55,877 nt of DNA from a virus. The stretch is taken from IMG/VR virus record IMGVR_UViG_3300031669_000035, positions 1-55,877 of that record; one strand, written 5' to 3'. Each line of letters begins with the position of its first letter. Positions within the stretch are counted from its first letter, which is position 1. Positions 3,228-46,241 of the stretch are shown here, one piece after another. The notes beneath the pieces were generated by a model. That model saw only the letters and a list, made by a program, of their open reading frames with translations, was not told the origin of the DNA and made no database searches. The translations under genes were made by a program, and so were the position numbers.

Positions 3228-4979
3228 TTACCTCTTTCTTTGTGCTGATTCTTTTTTTCTTTTTGCTGACCCTAAAAATTGTTCTGAATTTATTATATCT
3301 CTGGCTTCATCATTAAGCACTATATCATTTCCTTCTTTAGATAACTCGTTAACAAACTCGTCAACATCTTCAAGTCCTGACTGATTAAATGCATCAAGGA
3401 ATTGACCTCTTACGTTTGAATTATCAACCAATAGCTTGTTTCTTTTAACTCCAGAAGACACATTATCAAAAGCATCAACTGAAAGCTTAGCATCTTTTGA
3501 TAAACCTCCTATAGACCCTTTAACATTATCGTAGTCAACAGTAACATCCTCGACAGACTCAACATCTTTACCTGTTGGTCCTTTTGTTTTTGTTGTTATT
3601 TGACCTCTTCCTACATTTCTTGTTATACCGTCAGCTCCTGTTATCGTACTGAATTCGACAACAGTAAAATCTGATATCCCTTTTCTGGTAGTAAGCTTAC
3701 CATCGTCCCCTAAGACAATTAAACCATCAATTTTAACAGGTTTGTCTTGTGTTGCTTTTGACACAGGTACTGATATTGATGTCTGGTATTGGTTTCCTCC
3801 AACATTCAAAATCTTTGGTTCTTTTGACACAGGAACATCTTCTATCTTGTTGTAGCCATCTCCTTGTTTAGGTTTGTTTTTAACGGTAGCCGTTCTTTTA
3901 TCAACTTTACCTTTAAGAGCCATTATTCTATCGAATATTTGGTCTTCAGTTATTTCTCTATTTCTAAATGAAGCATTTTGCTTAATAGCCTTAGCTTGTG
4001 CTCTTGCCCCTTTAGAAAAGTCTTCTTGATACCTTGTAGTCTGTAAATAGTTGTCACCCCTATCTATTGCACCTGCTGTTTGAAGTATTTCTCCTTCTAT
4101 ATTTTTTAAAGTCTCGTTGTCTTTAAAATACTGGTCAACAGATTGAGATGTTTGAAGTTCGTTTAATTTATCTCTAAAACTTGCAGCCCCGAAAGCATCA
4201 CCTCCTGTAAATTTACCGCTAAGGTTTTTAAATTCACTATGAAGCTTTAAGGTATCATCAGACACATATTGGTCTCCCTCTTCAATAGCTTTTTCTACTT
4301 CAGCATTTAAATCTACAACTTGGTCAACCTCTCCTGCTAATATTTCAAGATTGTCCATTTGCTGAGCAAATTCCCTACCTATTTTTGTAGATGGGCTCGT
4401 TAATGCAGCCATTGCAGCTTCCCTACTACCATATTGCTCTTCAGCTCTTTTTATAAAAATATCTGTAAAATCATTAGCTGTGCTAACTAAGTTTTGATTA
4501 AATCTTGGATCCTTCGATAATGCAGGTTTTTTTAATTTGAATCTACCTAAGTCTTCAGCTCTTTTTAATGCTGCTTTTTGCTGTGCCTCTCTACGTCTTT
4601 CAAGTGCTGCAAATGGAATGTAACCACCACCACCAACGTAAATACCTCTTGAACCTGTTAATTGACCTGAAGTACTACCTACCTGAAGAGGCTGGTTATA
4701 TCCTGGCATAAACATTTCATTAGTAGCACCTGCAATAGCCGGATCTTGACCTCCAAGAGGATTTATTTGATTTTGAATAAATTGAACGTCAGAATCTGGA
4801 GTCATACTGCCTGCTGGGGAATACTGACCTATAGTTGCATTGTCTATATTGTTTTCTACAGCATTTCCATTACTGTTTGGAGGCAAGATAAATTCATTAG
4901 GATTCAGCACTTCATCATTATTAGATGGTGCTGCAACATATTGATTCTCATTAATTAATGTCTCGTCTTGTAATGCCAT
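3228..4979 (-). CDS. putative internal virion (cargo) protein, 583 aa
   Basis: No recognised domain. The first 120 residues are Asn/Gln/Pro/Gly-rich. Residues about 140-360 are charged and helical (Arg/Lys/Glu/Gln), and the C-terminus ends in a basic run (KRKKESAQRKR). Around residue 255 it contains GKFTGGDAFGA, a motif shared with the neighbouring 258-residue protein (GKFTGGDVGAT), which suggests a common role or docking signal. It lies between that protein and the giant virion protein with gaps of 6-10 bases, so all three are co-transcribed. By analogy with crAss-like and P22-like phages this is where ejected internal proteins are encoded; function is inferred from place only. Confidence 0.75.
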   Translation of the reverse strand: MALQDETLINENQYVAAPSNNDEVLNPNEFILPPNSNGNAVENNIDNATIGQYSPAGSMTPDSDVQFIQNQINPLGGQDPAIAGATNEMFMPGYNQPLQVGSTSGQLTGSRGIYVGGGGYIPFAALERRREAQQKAALKRAEDLGRFKLKKPALSKDPRFNQNLVSTANDFTDIFIKRAEEQYGSREAAMAALTSPSTKIGREFAQQMDNLEILAGEVDQVVDLNAEVEKAIEEGDQYVSDDTLKLHSEFKNLSGKFTGGDAFGAASFRDKLNELQTSQSVDQYFKDNETLKNIEGEILQTAGAIDRGDNYLQTTRYQEDFSKGARAQAKAIKQNASFRNREITEDQIFDRIMALKGKVDKRTATVKNKPKQGDGYNKIEDVPVSKEPKILNVGGNQYQTSISVPVSKATQDKPVKIDGLIVLGDDGKLTTRKGISDFTVVEFSTITGADGITRNVGRGQITTKTKGPTGKDVESVEDVTVDYDNVKGSIGGLSKDAKLSVDAFDNVSSGVKRNKLLVDNSNVRGQFLDAFNQSGLEDVDEFVNELSKEGNDIVLNDEARDIINSEQFLGSAKRKKESAQRKR

Positions 4980-8800: not shown

Positions 8801-10217
8801 GGTCTGTTTTTCTTGTTGCATTCTCATTATCAAAAACCTCGAATGTTTGGTCTACAGAACCTGTAACTGTTGCTGTAGTTGGGGCACCTAAGTAAGAATA
8901 TGTTTTTGAATCAGTAGAAAGTGGGTCTCTTCTGTTTGGAAATTCATAATTCTTAAATCCAGGTATAGCTTTTGAAAAACTTGTATCAGCACCAGACCCA
9001 AATACAGTAACTGCAAACCCATATCTTTCTCCACCAATATATCTTTTATTATATGCGTGATTATAAGGGTCTTTAAATCCTGATTTAAATAGTTTTTTAA
9101 CAACAGGGATAGCGTTTTCTGTACCTATTTTTTCGAAAGTTATGTTATCAATATTTCTTGATTCGAAACCAACATTCATTAAAACAAGTCTTTTATCATG
9201 ATATCTTATTGCTTTAGCTCTATTTATTATAGCTAAATCATTTATTTCATCCTCCTCAGTTATTGCATCGTCAACATTTGAATCTACAGGGTCTATAAAT
9301 TCTCTTACAGATATCTCTCCATCCGATATATCTATTTTAGCAATAATAAAAGAATCTGGAGTTATTACGTTTGAAAGCTCTTGATTATAAGATTGCCTTC
9401 TTATTTCTAAGAAGTCAAAATTAGAAGAATTGTTTACTCTAAATTTTAACTTTATACCATAGTTAGATCCTGATAGAACATTAGAGTCACCACCAATAGT
9501 CATCGAGCCAGGATATACATTTCCTGATAAATCAAGGTTTTCCACAACAGGAATAGGAGGCGTGGAAGGAGTCCAGTTTGTTCTATCTCCGTCAACAGTT
9601 ACATATCTTAAAGAATAAACGTATGAGCCTATTGGTAGTCCATTACTACCACCAACATTAACAAGACTATCAAATACCGGTATATTTAAAGGGTTATCTA
9701 AATTTACAGTGTATAATGAAGGATTATAGTTTGAAAAATATTTATCAGGATTCGTAACCAACGAATCAATCATGTCTTGAATATTATAAATCAATGGAGG
9801 TGTGTTGTTGTCTGTTATAAAAACTTCACCACCAACACAACTTTCATTTTTATCTATTTGTAAAGGGAAATCAACTAAAAATGGTAATTTGTCAGACTTT
9901 GAAACTATTACTCCGTCAATAGTAATAATAGGATCCTCAACACCTGTTTTTTCAACCCAAACCTCAAATTTCTTATTATTTACAGATGCTGTCCCTATGC
10001 ATTCATATATTCCTGTAGCTACATTGGAATGTACTAATTGCTCTCCTTTTATCTTTTCTGCAGCAGCTCTCTCGCTTTTTATTGAAGAAACTCTTAAATT
10101 ACGCCCATCAAGATACTCGCCACTCTTAGAGCTTGCTCCAAGAATTTCTTTATCTACATCTTGATTCGCACCTCTATCATTAGAGCGTACTTCTTTTGGG
10201 TGGTTTTCTTGTTTCAT
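5808..10217 (-). CDS. tail hub/muzzle ('stabilization') protein, crAss-like
   Basis: This is the largest complete gene, 1469 residues, beta-rich and full of Asn, Gly, Tyr and Pro, as expected of a podovirus tail hub. The N-terminus has NDRGANQDVDKEILGA and YLDGRNLRVSS, then repeated strand-rich modules (for example GLPIGSYVYSLRYVTVDGDRTNWTPS around residue 200). Its place immediately after three ring proteins matches the muzzle/stabilization protein of crAss-like phages, a role assigned from memory of that order. The start overlaps nothing; the preceding ring gene ends three bases upstream. It probably forms the distal end of the short tail that contacts the cell surface. Confidence 0.75.
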   Translation of the reverse strand: MKQENHPKEVRSNDRGANQDVDKEILGASSKSGEYLDGRNLRVSSIKSERAAAEKIKGEQLVHSNVATGIYECIGTASVNNKKFEVWVEKTGVEDPIITIDGVIVSKSDKLPFLVDFPLQIDKNESCVGGEVFITDNNTPPLIYNIQDMIDSLVTNPDKYFSNYNPSLYTVNLDNPLNIPVFDSLVNVGGSNGLPIGSYVYSLRYVTVDGDRTNWTPSTPPIPVVENLDLSGNVYPGSMTIGGDSNVLSGSNYGIKLKFRVNNSSNFDFLEIRRQSYNQELSNVITPDSFIIAKIDISDGEISVREFIDPVDSNVDDAITEEDEINDLAIINRAKAIRYHDKRLVLMNVGFESRNIDNITFEKIGTENAIPVVKKLFKSGFKDPYNHAYNKRYIGGERYGFAVTVFGSGADTSFSKAIPGFKNYEFPNRRDPLSTDSKTYSYLGAPTTATVTGSVDQTFEVFDNENATRKTDLCAFKNIIIQGNKTLSAVTLPFCPLPPIFGSQVQCNELGYLPMRPVSKSDTDLRGQEYRINIGAYRSGAFDNYDPLAYAPNYYTMGLAVGGVKNLPTWSKGFSVVRTDPAKRVLAQGIGVYSLTPGAITPVVGGLGITTALPTKAKNKFWFYTGDLAFQDSSLINDIVANPEDYSVQLVSPLGFFSNVYSFEKGLTDDRSLDMITYARVLHDEGQINCGEWAGMGVPSGGKNYVAHNKYRNADPASGGVFGGNGNKEIKLKSALIRGEGRSSVIDLELDEDVYIRDTAITKDFDDPNTRQWHEPFYIINIINTGAEIRDKNVENYKSTGHFQKIESIIGIGDSTPDQSFELVDERWEDCIPDLSPSGSFAGFFSYVYMVDSLGVSKTWMNVTYKTPLEITNITNDIISNGFYVPEPGVQVVGLYTHTNTNNRNFTLEFNVPSYYPTADDFITVRYDDRRPIQVFGGDSVVAENVFCPIDRTTDDPDDFNPANQFILNTGFPFDRYNTNPRYYEPVNKLDFSSGFNGVGQDSSMRLSYIRQLLIMFAGETRLAVNYAKNSNQNPDNQSYPTINYVMRPHRYPPTTVYPEYFEDYGIGESSIFNYGGFRFKQNMNIDYSYDGPIQYFSKPEFGFTENNDFCTAVVWSLPRAVNVQDSPGLKTFTSTNRIDIADDQGAIKKAWDATTGGKGENLYAITNKGVCLLLTKKAILSNIDANDLTTTNVDEFISGEYWLSKNIGSTDEMWRGMGEGTISMPTETGSVEVEVLYFPNRQSVYSLSDNQIKDIGRNKYLSRLSPFLKGLAPGYGGKLSGFINPNNNEYWIDIEDSNNKSRELFVYGSENALWEGSFDYRFDKYYMSENKIFGARDLQTFELDKGYVINNANIIYELTTAFSPGNISLEKEFIRIGVQSGVRGEMKPTSIEFYDQDMTLLCSLSQFTQGTLFLKQYDGWEQFIGRKDAIVSPNRDRVQERCLIVRVVHNKPEDFKVVTTTIQYKIIK

Positions 10218-42537: not shown

Positions 42538-42612
42538 CCCATATCATTGCATTGTCCTTTAGACCCTTTAGGGTTGACGGTTTAGCCCTTGTATTTGATA
42601 TGGGTATTTTTA
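42538..42612 (+). promoter_or_regulatory. hairpin leader/attenuator over the HNH-like gene start
   Basis: CCCATATCA (42538) pairs perfectly with TGATATGGG (42596), extended by flanking A and T runs. An inner hairpin ACCC/GGGT lies at 42563-42574. The 3' arm runs into TATTTTTATT, so it can terminate, and it ends just before the ATG at 42615, so it can also hide the start, as seen for free-standing homing endonuclease genes. Confidence 0.6.
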
Positions 42613-42614
42613 TT

Positions 42615-43205
42615 ATGAAGGAATGCAGTAGATGTTTGTTGCTCAAGTCTAAACTTGAGTTTGGAAATCAAAAGAATAGTCCAGATGGTTTAAGTTACAT
42701 TTGTAAAGGATGTGATAGAAAAAAAGGATTTGAATATAATCGAACCAGAGACGGGATAATAACAAAAATATTAAGTTCTCAAAAGAAAAACTCAAAAAGA
42801 AGAGGGCATGAGGCTCCAGCTTATAATAAACAAGAATTTAAAGATTGGATGCTTTCCCGACCAAACTTTGAACCCCTCTACCTTGCCTGGGTATCATCTA
42901 ATTATAATCGAGACCTAAAGCTGTCTGTAGATAGGTTAGATGACAATCTACCGTATAGCATTGATAATATCCAGCTAATGACTTGGGGCGAAAATTACAG
43001 AAAATCAAGAGCTGATATTCAAAGTGGAAAACTTAGGACCAACCATAAGGTTGTAATAGGGACGAACATAAATACTGGTGAAAAAATAGAATTTGACTCA
43101 TTAAAAGAAGCCGCTAATTATATTGGTGTCGATTCTTCAAATATTACTAAATGCTGCACAGGTATTCAAGGGTCTTCAGGAGGTTATTCCTGGAGGCATA
43201 AATAA
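42615..43205 (+). CDS. HNH-type homing endonuclease with NUMOD1 tail
   Basis: 196 residues from ATG 42615; an in-frame ATG at 42600 lies inside the hairpin. The N-terminus CSRCLLLKSK and CKGCDRKKG form a Cys4 zinc site. The middle has SVDRLDDNLPYSIDNIQLMT, the HNH-like metal region. The C-terminus EIFDSLKEAANYIGV-type segment ending GGYSWRHK is a NUMOD1 DNA-binding module. Probably a free-standing mobile endonuclease inserted beside the recombination block. Confidence 0.75.
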   Translation: MKECSRCLLLKSKLEFGNQKNSPDGLSYICKGCDRKKGFEYNRTRDGIITKILSSQKKNSKRRGHEAPAYNKQEFKDWMLSRPNFEPLYLAWVSSNYNRDLKLSVDRLDDNLPYSIDNIQLMTWGENYRKSRADIQSGKLRTNHKVVIGTNINTGEKIEFDSLKEAANYIGVDSSNITKCCTGIQGSSGGYSWRHK

Positions 43206-43282: not shown

Positions 43283-44278
43283 ATGGGATTAACGATTACG
43301 AATAAATACGGAGTGAGCGAAGCTATTGTTAACGCCACAAAAATAGATAATCATCGAGTTATTGGTGACATCTCAGTAACAGGACTACTTGATGCTCCAC
43401 AGGTTCGTATTCTGAAGAGAACCTGTGAAATGGAGGAAGATGTTACGGATAGAATATGGGCCTTAATGGGAACCGCTGTCCATTACATGTTGCAGCTCGG
43501 AGAGGTAGGGGCAAGGGAAGCTAAAATACTTCTTGAAGCTGCTGAGATTCTAATGAAGGAGGATGAAGAGAAAGCTTCTAAATGGATAACTAAATTTGTC
43601 AAAGAGAAATACCCTCAAGCAATAAATAAAGATGTCCTTACTGAAGTTACATTGTCTCACACAATGCATGATATGACCTTTTCTGGTACATTTGATAGGT
43701 ACACTATATCTAAATGTCATCTTGAGGATTATAAGAATACTTCTGTTTACCCTTACATGAATCCTGAAGCACAAAAGAAATGGGTTGGACAACTTAATGT
43801 GTATGCTTTCCTTCTTAGAGAGAATGGTTACGAGGTAAAAAAAGCTGATATAACCGCCATTTTTAGAGATTTTTCAGCAGCTAAATCATTTCAAAAAGGT
43901 TATCCTAAAAAACCTATAGAGACATTTAATATCCCATTATACTCTCAGGATTTTATGCGTGATTATATTGGTAAAAGAATACTCCTTCATAAGGAAGCTG
44001 AATCTGGTAATATACCTCCATGTACTGCAAAAGATATGTGGTCCGTAAAAGATAGTTATGCTGTTACAAGTCCAGGAAGGAAAAGAGCTATTAAGCTATT
44101 TCCTACAAGGCCATTAGCTGAAGCTTTCTTATTGGGAGAAGGTGCTCAATACCCTAAAGCAGAAGTTGAAGTAAGGATAGGTGAAGCAAGAAGATGTGCT
44201 TCTTATTGTCCTGTGAGTCATGTGTGTACTCAGAATAAAGAAAGATTACAACGAATAGCTGAAGAGGCTGAAAAATAA
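43283..44278 (+). CDS. PD-(D/E)XK nuclease, Cas4/RecB-like
   Basis: 331 residues. Motifs fit the RecB-type fold: GTAVHYML with H67, GTFDRY with D138, and LEDYK with E148-x-K151. One N-terminal Cys (C48) and three C-terminal Cys (C305, C309, C315; RRCASYCPVSHVC) are arranged as in Cas4/AddB nucleases with a 4Fe-4S cluster, though this is an inference. It likely resects DNA ends together with the downstream SbcC-like ATPase and SNF2 helicase. Confidence 0.8.
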   Translation: MGLTITNKYGVSEAIVNATKIDNHRVIGDISVTGLLDAPQVRILKRTCEMEEDVTDRIWALMGTAVHYMLQLGEVGAREAKILLEAAEILMKEDEEKASKWITKFVKEKYPQAINKDVLTEVTLSHTMHDMTFSGTFDRYTISKCHLEDYKNTSVYPYMNPEAQKKWVGQLNVYAFLLRENGYEVKKADITAIFRDFSAAKSFQKGYPKKPIETFNIPLYSQDFMRDYIGKRILLHKEAESGNIPPCTAKDMWSVKDSYAVTSPGRKRAIKLFPTRPLAEAFLLGEGAQYPKAEVEVRIGEARRCASYCPVSHVCTQNKERLQRIAEEAEK

Positions 44279-44505: not shown

Positions 44506-44612
44506 GACTACAGTAGTTCAGTTGGTTAGAACAGTGTGCCCTCTAATGGTAAAAGATGCCTAAAAAATAGGGATAAACACACAAGCCGTAGGTTCGAGTC
44601 CTACCTGTAGTC
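44506..44612 (+). tRNA. tRNA-like gene with amber-type anticodon loop and about 30 extra bases
   Basis: Acceptor ACTACAG/CTGTAGT, with G506 also able to pair with C612. D-arm GTTC/GAAC with AGTTGGTTA loop. T-arm GTAGG-TTCGAGT-CCTAC. All are canonical. Between D-arm and T-arm lie about 55 bases instead of about 23. One fold gives an anticodon loop CTCTAAT (anticodon CUA, reads UAG) closed by TGCC/GGTA, plus a variable-arm hairpin (44556-44574). Another gives a perfect GTGTG/CACAC stem with a 39-base loop and normal AAGCC variable loop, but then position 33 is C. CCA is not encoded. Confidence 0.7.
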
Positions 44613-44624
44613 CAAAACAACAGC

Positions 44625-44884
44625 ACGCTGGGGAGATTTGTATCTTATCTCCTTGATGCAGTACTCACTAATACGCCATGCTATATGCTGGATGAGGAAA
44701 TGAGACGGAAAACAGGTGGTCTGGTTTTTACTCAAACATCTCTCTGTTGAGGGTTTAGCTTGAACGAGTTAGAAATAACTGAAGGTACAGTTTAGGCGGT
44801 CACATCATGCAGAGAGTTCCTGGTAGTTGGATTAGACGAAATTTTAAAAAGGAATGACAGCGTGGAAAGACACGCATTTTTTTT
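44625..44884 (+). ncRNA. candidate structured non-coding RNA after the tRNA-like gene
   Basis: 260 bases with no ORF and many hairpins: GGAGAT/ATCTCC (44632, 44647), CTCAA/TTGAG (44731, 44747), AGTTA-GAAA-TAACT (44767-44780, a GNRA tetraloop) and a terminator hairpin at the end. The loop bases CTCTCTG (44740-44746) pair perfectly with CAGAGAG (44810-44816), giving a pseudoknot. No known family is recognised. Confidence 0.6.
44860..44884 (+). terminator. terminator of the ncRNA
   Basis: GCGTG/CACGC stem with GAAAGA loop followed by A and eight T residues. Ends the tRNA/ncRNA transcript 26 bases before the SbcC-like ATG. Confidence 0.8.
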
Positions 44885-44909
44885 ACACTAACAAACTAAA
44901 AATAAGAAG

Positions 44910-46241
44910 ATGGAAGGATTAAAATTAATTAGAGCTGAAGTAAAAAACTTCAAAAGTATAACTCATAAAATAGTAGAATTTAATGGTCGTTCAGCTATTA
45001 TTCTCGGTAAGAATGGAGCAGGAAAGTCAAGCTTAATTCAAGCCTTGACATCTCCTGTAAACTCTAAAATGGTTCCTTTAAAACCCATTAAGAATGGAGA
45101 GGAGAATGCTTCAATAGAACTTACTTTGTCAGGTAATATGGGTGGAGAAGATCAAACCTATAATGTTGATATGCATTTTACTCCAAGAGATAAAAAAGGG
45201 CGTATCACTGTTACTGATGAAAACGGTTCCAAAATATCAGATACTAAATCAATGGTAAATTCTATCGTTGGAAATATTGGTTTTGACATATTAGAATTTA
45301 TTGACCTTGGACTTACTAAAGATGGTAAGGTTTCTAAGCCAGGAGTAAAAGAGCAGATTGATACTCTTAAAAGTTTCCTTCCTACAGAATCAAGAAAACG
45401 TCTTTTCGAGCTTGACCATGAGAAATCAACTATTTATGAAGAAAGAGCTGAAATAAATAGAGATATTAAATCCAATACAGCAAAATTAAAAGATGCTGAA
45501 ATGGACCCTCAAGAGATTGAAAAATACTCTGAAAAGAAAGATGATTCTGACATTAAGGCTAAAATGTCTTCTATTGGTGAGGAGGTTTCTAAATATGATA
45601 GAATAGCCAATGGATTAAAAGATAAAGAGTTTCAAGCAGGTACTCTTGCTTCTACCGTAGAAGCTTTAGCTAAAGAGCTTGCCGACAAAACAAAAGAGCT
45701 TGAACTTCTTAATGAAGACATTCAAAAAGGAAGAGATTGGATTAAAGGCAAAGAAAGACCTTCAATGGAGAATCTTTCTGCTGAGCTTGAAGAGATAAGT
45801 GCTCACAATAAGAAAGTTGATGAAGTTAACTCTCTTAAGGAGTTCAGTAAGAACGCAAGAGAACTTCAGGCTTCTGCTGACGCACTTACAGAGAGATACA
45901 ATGCTATTGATGGAGAAAAAGCTAACATCTTTAAAGAAACTCCATTACCTGTTAAAGGATTAGAGTTTTCTGAAGATGAGATTCTTTATAACGGACTTCC
46001 TTTTAATGCAAATCAACATCCATCATCTACCATTATTGGTATAGGTATTAAGATTGCAATGGCGATGAATCCTAATCTTAAAGTTCTTATTATTAAAGAT
46101 GGTTCCCTACTTGACAAAAAGGTGCTTAAATTCATCCTGAAGATAGTAGAAAAAGAAGGTTATCAAGTGTTTATTGAGACTGTTGACCATGAAGGAGAAA
46201 AAGATTTAGAAGTTCAATTTATAGAAGAAGATTTACAATAG
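44910..46241 (+). CDS. SbcC/RecN-like AAA ATPase
   Basis: 443 residues. Walker A GKNGAGKSS (33-41), a long coiled-coil middle (about 140-330) without a clear hook, and a C-terminal Walker B-like LKVLIIKDGSLLD (390-402). It is a short version of the SMC-like family, as found in phages next to exonucleases. It probably works with the PD-(D/E)XK nuclease at DNA ends. Its stop is followed directly by the helicase ATG. Confidence 0.8.
   Translation: MEGLKLIRAEVKNFKSITHKIVEFNGRSAIILGKNGAGKSSLIQALTSPVNSKMVPLKPIKNGEENASIELTLSGNMGGEDQTYNVDMHFTPRDKKGRITVTDENGSKISDTKSMVNSIVGNIGFDILEFIDLGLTKDGKVSKPGVKEQIDTLKSFLPTESRKRLFELDHEKSTIYEERAEINRDIKSNTAKLKDAEMDPQEIEKYSEKKDDSDIKAKMSSIGEEVSKYDRIANGLKDKEFQAGTLASTVEALAKELADKTKELELLNEDIQKGRDWIKGKERPSMENLSAELEEISAHNKKVDEVNSLKEFSKNARELQASADALTERYNAIDGEKANIFKETPLPVKGLEFSEDEILYNGLPFNANQHPSSTIIGIGIKIAMAMNPNLKVLIIKDGSLLDKKVLKFILKIVEKEGYQVFIETVDHEGEKDLEVQFIEEDLQ

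Follow-up and report, generated by a model that had tools for sequence, protein, structure and literature searches.

A tRNA-shaped RNA gene of a probable Bacteroidota phage with a structured module in place of its anticodon loop

The locus and the parts of the gene

A single linear IMG/VR virus record, 55,877 bases long, was analysed and is referred to below as the window. It encodes a P22-type portal, an SU10-type capsid protein and a BT4734-like primase domain, a set that points to a phage of Bacteroidota. The crAss-like affiliation brought up in an earlier reading of the letters alone (here the sequence-only reading) finds no support in the portal and capsid types, and the portal has 0 matches among 50,697 phage records. 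The sole tRNA-type gene of the window by Rfam, at 44507-44612, is flanked by a gene for a PD-(D/E)XK exonuclease (43283-44278) and one for an SMC/AAA-type ATPase (44910-46241). The noncoding stretch that follows it (Table 1) has a fold with a z of only -1.7 and may share a transcript with the RNA gene. A NUMOD/endonuclease VII-like homing endonuclease gene (42552-43205) is present 1.3 kb upstream.

Two helicase relatives of the window phage, L048 (72% identity) and L049 (54%), have no tRNA-type gene between their exonuclease and ATPase genes, the gap there being ~110 bp and ~46 bp respectively, so that the RNA gene and its flanking noncoding DNA are, as sampled, specific to the lineage of the window. 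(The gap in L048, at ~3255-3367, is a shorter, hairpin-like noncoding one between the same two genes, and L049 has a different tRNA elsewhere, at 9442-9517, with a 6-nt anticodon loop.) Use of the AAA ATPase for finding orthologous loci gave none in viral or genome contigs, the capsid-gene relatives of the window are fragments from which the RNA gene is absent, and the exact 27-nt 5' half of the RNA gene is absent from viral contigs. With no close homologue found in viral and genome contigs, a single copy of this type of RNA gene is known.

Table 1. Parts of the RNA gene and adjoining features, in window coordinates
Feature	Position	Strand	Basis or remark
Small open frame, 56 aa	44288..44458	+	Between exonuclease gene and RNA gene; from translation
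tRNA-shaped RNA gene, N-1 to N73, 107 nt	44506..44612	+	Rfam RF00005, fold
Acceptor stem, 5' strand (ACTACAG, G-1 at 44506)	44506..44513	+	Pairs with CTGTAGT
D-arm, GTTC-AGTTGGTTA-GAAC	44516..44532	+	Rfam alignment, fold
Anticodon stem P1, 5' strand GTGTG	44534..44538	+	Pair probability 0.94 with 44578-44582
39-nt module replacing 7-nt anticodon loop	44539..44577	+	Fold; comparison with X
P2, 5' strand CCCT	44539..44542	+	Pairs with AGGG 44569-44572, probability 0.82-0.89
CTCTAAT, P2-P3 linker (proposed amber loop)	44541..44547	+	Fold
P3 hairpin, GGTA-AAAGA-TGCC	44548..44560	+	Fold; X counterpart GGY-NAAGG-RCC
P2, 3' strand AGGG, and 3' bulge ATAAA	44569..44577	+	Fold
Anticodon stem P1, 3' strand CACAC	44578..44582	+	Fold
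Variable loop AAGCC, 5 nt	44583..44587	+	Fold; GCC invariant in X alignment
T-arm, GTAGG-TTCGAGT-CCTAC	44588..44604	+	Rfam alignment, fold
Acceptor stem, 3' strand, and N73 (C)	44605..44612	+	CCA not encoded; CAA next
Noncoding stretch, about 290 nt, 3' of RNA gene	44613..44909	+	Terminator-like hairpin 44860-44875 and T-run

That acceptor, D- and T-arms are canonical, as the sequence-only reading had it, is borne out by a match to the Rfam tRNA model RF00005 of 50.5 bits (E=6.3e-8 for the whole window, 8e-10 for a 701-base stretch). ARAGORN, with which a check of the locus had been proposed, reported no tRNA on the window and missed the gene. The acceptor has the standard 7 bp, extendable to 8 bp by pairing of G-1 (44506) with C73 (44612), and the kept tRNA positions include T8, A9, A14, G15, the D-loop GG, C48 and TTCGA. 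The fold of the whole RNA is better than those of 200/200 dinucleotide shuffles (z -2.9). The middle, noticed early on as some 30 bases too long, measures 32 nt over length, with an anticodon loop of 39 nt as against 7. The pairing of GTGTG with CACAC does exist but, taken earlier as an alternative, it stands, at the high probability given in Table 1, in the normal place of the anticodon stem, 1 base from the D-stem and 5 from the T-stem; five Watson-Crick pairs at one fixed place would be expected by chance with a probability of ~0.0017 at this base composition. Across P1, P2 and P3 the pair probabilities are 0.82-0.95.

Family X and other tRNA genes with long middles

A tRNA pattern with D- and T-arms 45-75 nt apart gave 42 viral loci and a broader pattern at least 120; genome contigs gave 33. 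Filtering on acceptor and T-stem pairing left, among the matches listed, 124 distinct genes, the window gene included, and these sort into several families. In one of them, named X here, a conserved core (e.g. CCCTCATGGTGAAGGACCCAAACGCTGGGAATAA) takes the place of the anticodon loop, and pattern and motif searches of viral contigs together yielded 36 distinct full-length tRNA-shaped X genes at 44 loci. Since parts of the core (TCATGG..AAGG.CC) were preset in the motif search, the conservation of those letters in X is partly by construction, which does not apply to the covariation of P2, to the flanks or to the X members from the first broad scan. In 24 aligned modules P2 has changed on both sides in 5/5 pairs, and the covariation score is 0.493 versus 0.196 for shuffled alignments. 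A covariance model of X recovers six left-out X genes (L226, L227, L232, L236, L237 and L238) at 47-54 bits.

X genes are frequently found within tRNA arrays, and no neighbour gene common to X loci was seen. Their N73 can be A, T, G or C, a variability that argues against one synthetase identity, CCA is encoded in only 3 of the 36, and N-1:N73 is a Watson-Crick pair in 28/36, compared with 55/127 ordinary tRNAs from those loci (Fisher p=0.0003). Rfam matched no family but tRNA to the X genes, and a search for X in isolate phages matched nothing beyond ordinary tRNA arms. Word searches, with most subscription papers and preprints outside their coverage, found no published description of X. A short frame resembling the tag of tmRNA was considered for X and rejected, ATG and TAA being out of frame or missing among members, and likenesses to HDV, twister and tetraloop-receptor motifs were dropped as inexact. 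One phage contig with an X gene, L117, has its own bacterial-type RNase P RNA (2375-2772, 162.5 bits) and 17 tRNAs.

The window gene shares the layout of X, i.e. a tRNA body with a structured module between the halves of the anticodon stem, and where it has AGGG followed by ATAAA, GGG-A(A)TAA or GGG-ATAAA is common among X members. In a comparison that was chosen after several families had been viewed and that uses a simple scoring scheme, the best global alignment of the window middle with X scores 47, the shuffle mean being 19.6 (sd 5.1); 0/1000 shuffles reach the score, and the same holds for the 39-nt loop alone. The mean of its five best X scores, 40, is higher than that of all 103 non-X genes (maximum 31) among the matches listed, and exceeds also that of the lowest X member when left out (34.8). 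Ranked against the 124 long-middle tRNA genes among the matches listed, the nine nearest to the window middle are all X. However, an X covariance model built without the window (R1) gives no match above noise on it (4 bits, off register, locally), and the window module is without the invariant AAGG loop and GC of X. The case for kinship thus comes from pairwise alignment under a simple scoring scheme, and the failure of the covariance model to detect the window gene makes it at best a divergent relative; judged by sequence, it is probably such a relative and not a member.

A different property distinguishes many of the other long-middle genes. When one excision was asked to yield a canonical anticodon arm (U33, purine at 37), this was achieved in 45/103 non-X genes among the matches listed versus ~0.5% of shuffles, archaeal genes (e.g. 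L165, L170, L172) also being found in this way, and in 0/21 X genes. The window gene fails in the strict and the relaxed version of the test.

Several kinds of insert were encountered. Phage genes of a family named Y here (including L057, L125, L093, L107, L102, L097, L105, L019, L152, L036, L089 and L160) have an anticodon stem whose 5' strand is interrupted after nt 28/29 by 40-50 nt that include a hairpin and an ACAGCAA-type motif; once these are excised, perfect anticodon arms with real anticodons result (Arg TCT, Thr TGT, Asn GTT, Lys TTT, Asp GTC, Gln TTG and Gly TCC). Judging from sequence, the Y inserts look, as a class, like short introns of the stem, and they may overlap those of Lak phages. 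Bacteroidetes genome contigs L163, L176 and L184 (also L167) have inserts at the same anticodon-stem position with a different shared motif, GGTCAAA...CTTACT (family W). A further long-middle family, CAAAGAAAA.CTGTTAG ... CAGTAATAAGGGTC, comprises L004, L014, L022 and L037, loci where ARAGORN finds no other tRNA. L004 shows a G3:U70 pair and A73, both also features of alanine tRNAs. Solitary long-middle tRNA-shaped genes between same-strand genes are present in L018 (3826-3911), where a downstream 918-aa open frame is tape-measure-like in size, and in L043 (8082-8168). On viral contigs L011/L039 and L124, which may be from archaeal viruses, the anticodon loop has its insert on the 3' side, where archaeal introns sit.

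Suppression, splicing, decay and processing as rival readings

In the sequence-only reading CTCTAAT, with anticodon CUA and a long variable region 3' of it, would be the loop of an amber suppressor. The string is indeed there and contains U33 and CUA, other phages carry CUA tRNAs (ARAGORN reports 'tRNA-Pyl (cta)' in L019 and L115), and a CTA suppressor occurs together with recoded TAG in Lak phages (PMC6784885). As an anticodon loop, however, it lies outside the anticodon position and hardly forms: the flanking stem TGCC/GGTA has only 4 bp including a G-T, with extra bases before it, its pair probabilities are 0.002-0.007, and a fold constrained to contain it is 4.3 kcal/mol worse. The segment that aligns with CTCTAAT in related genes, CTC-A[T/A/C]GG, belongs to the conserved folded module and varies in X (CTCAT, CTCAA, CTCAC). 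Neither stop usage of the 57 window genes nor read-through adjacency gives a sign of TAG recoding, which had been raised in connection with the suppressor; TAG is an ordinary stop ending 14/57, the capsid gene among them, and an in-frame path into a long downstream frame follows 3/14 TAG and 7/39 TAA stops, without enrichment. Since dozens of other phages have a related, conserved module in the corresponding position, stop-codon suppression is probably not the role of this RNA, which would instead be a stable RNA of tRNA shape with another job; amber suppression has become very improbable. Removal of a short intron, leaving a decoding tRNA, has more in its favour, yet is unlikely. There are phage tRNA genes in which a perfect anticodon arm is regained once the insert is taken out (the 45/103 above, among the matches listed), Lak phage tRNA introns have been published (PMC6784885), the extra bases have the intron-like look ascribed to them, and taking 32 nt from the window gene leaves P1 with the loop CCCTAAA. 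But, as was correctly spotted for the GTGTG/CACAC stem, U33 is lacking, position 33 being C or G after every single excision that keeps P1, and because no single excision gives a canonical loop with U33, a simple intron is disfavoured for the window gene and X alike. Excision of the archaeal bulge-helix-bulge type does not restore a canonical anticodon arm either; nor does the window middle resemble the stem-insert family instead of X, the gene having no insert between nt 28-30 with a hairpin and ACAGCAA and no restored arm, as Y would. Judged as a functional elongator tRNA, it has acceptor, D- and T-arms of standard size and no 7-nt loop with U33 on the 5-bp stem. Rfam found no group I intron at the locus, and such an intron was in any case rejected as a candidate, its core being ~200 nt or more versus 32 nt of extra sequence. 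A tmRNA was also rejected, with a D-stem present in the window gene and none reported by ARAGORN. (Genes of tmRNA type were seen on viral contigs L017, 3683-4033, and L013, 13746-14052.)

A degenerate or acquired tRNA gene, functionless after a chance insertion, would be in keeping with a gene that is solitary and missing at that place in the two nearest relatives. It is nevertheless improbable, as decay would have to have left all tRNA tertiary positions and the 8-bp acceptor intact, P1, P2 and P3 all complementary with a fold surpassing every shuffle, and a module that resembles a conserved family. Quite improbable too is that the gene is a processing signal, at which cuts by RNase P and RNase Z would part the exonuclease message from the noncoding stretch and the ATPase gene in the manner of tRNA punctuation. 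The position between two same-strand genes, ahead of a noncoding stretch of ~290 nt with a terminator, would suit this, as would that of the L018 gene, also between same-strand genes and before the 918-aa frame; the structure of the module and its conservation in X are left unexplained, however, and X is often located in tRNA arrays.

The tRNA body as a proposed scaffold, and what it would mean

The reading preferred here, to which a probability of about 0.62-0.65 is assigned from sequence analysis, is that the locus encodes a small noncoding RNA in which the tRNA body would act as a scaffold and would not decode. In the sequence, all elements of the tRNA elbow and acceptor are kept and a 39-nt structured module replaces the anticodon loop. 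Host RNase P and RNase Z would mature the RNA in tRNA style, charging with one fixed amino acid would presumably not take place, and the mature RNA would, like engineered tRNA scaffolds, be a stable support on which the module is offered to a partner. For phage tRNAs, a role against host defences that cut tRNA is known or has been proposed (PMC10264068). The partner may, at a guess, be a host factor that acts on tRNA, such as an anticodon nuclease or a modification or maturation enzyme, in which case the RNA would work as a decoy, a role that the sequence-only reading had also allowed for; for a non-decoding scaffold this is the leading guess as to role, and a tentative one.

Known systems offer partial parallels. 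The small stable RNAs C (rnaC, species 1) and D (rnaD, species 2) of phage T4, with no known role, are encoded beside its tRNA genes (PMC3014915; NC_000866), and rnaC, whose fold includes a T-arm, is strongly structured (z -4.6). It is, though, 139 nt long and falls short of the Rfam tRNA model, its best score being 17.5 bits to tRNA-Sec (E 0.55), and the parallel implies no sequence kinship. Lak megaphages likewise have tRNA genes with enigmatic conserved inserts (PMC6784885), which, as described, are termed introns in tRNAs with real anticodons, whereas single excision yields no usable anticodon loop in the window gene or X. Altered anticodon loops are shared with phage tRNAs that escape host anticodon nucleases and are proposed to counter tRNA-cutting defences (PMC10264068); those have point changes and still decode, while in the window RNA the loop is replaced. 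The engineered scaffold in which the anticodon stem-loop was made the insertion region (PMC3753655) also keeps acceptor, D- and T-arms, but is man-made, the phage module being natural. GOLLD RNA, likewise noncoding and linked to phages, occurs near tRNA genes and can contain a tRNA-like portion (PMC6582537), yet at >400 nt it is unlike the 107-nt window gene, on which Rfam found neither GOLLD nor any other RNA family besides tRNA.

A broader proposition, that phages widely use the tRNA body to carry conserved non-decoding modules, those of X and of divergent relatives such as the window RNA, directed at host tRNA-related defence or translation factors, and that these may amount to an unrecognised class of effector RNA, is offered as a conjecture of rather low probability. 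Standard tRNA finders overlook or misname genes of the X and window kind, and X offers a defined RNA module that can be put to the test. Phage tRNA genes have posed a puzzle for more than 50 years, and a conserved tRNA-shaped family that does not decode would mean that part of the apparent tRNA gene content of phages is not for translation.
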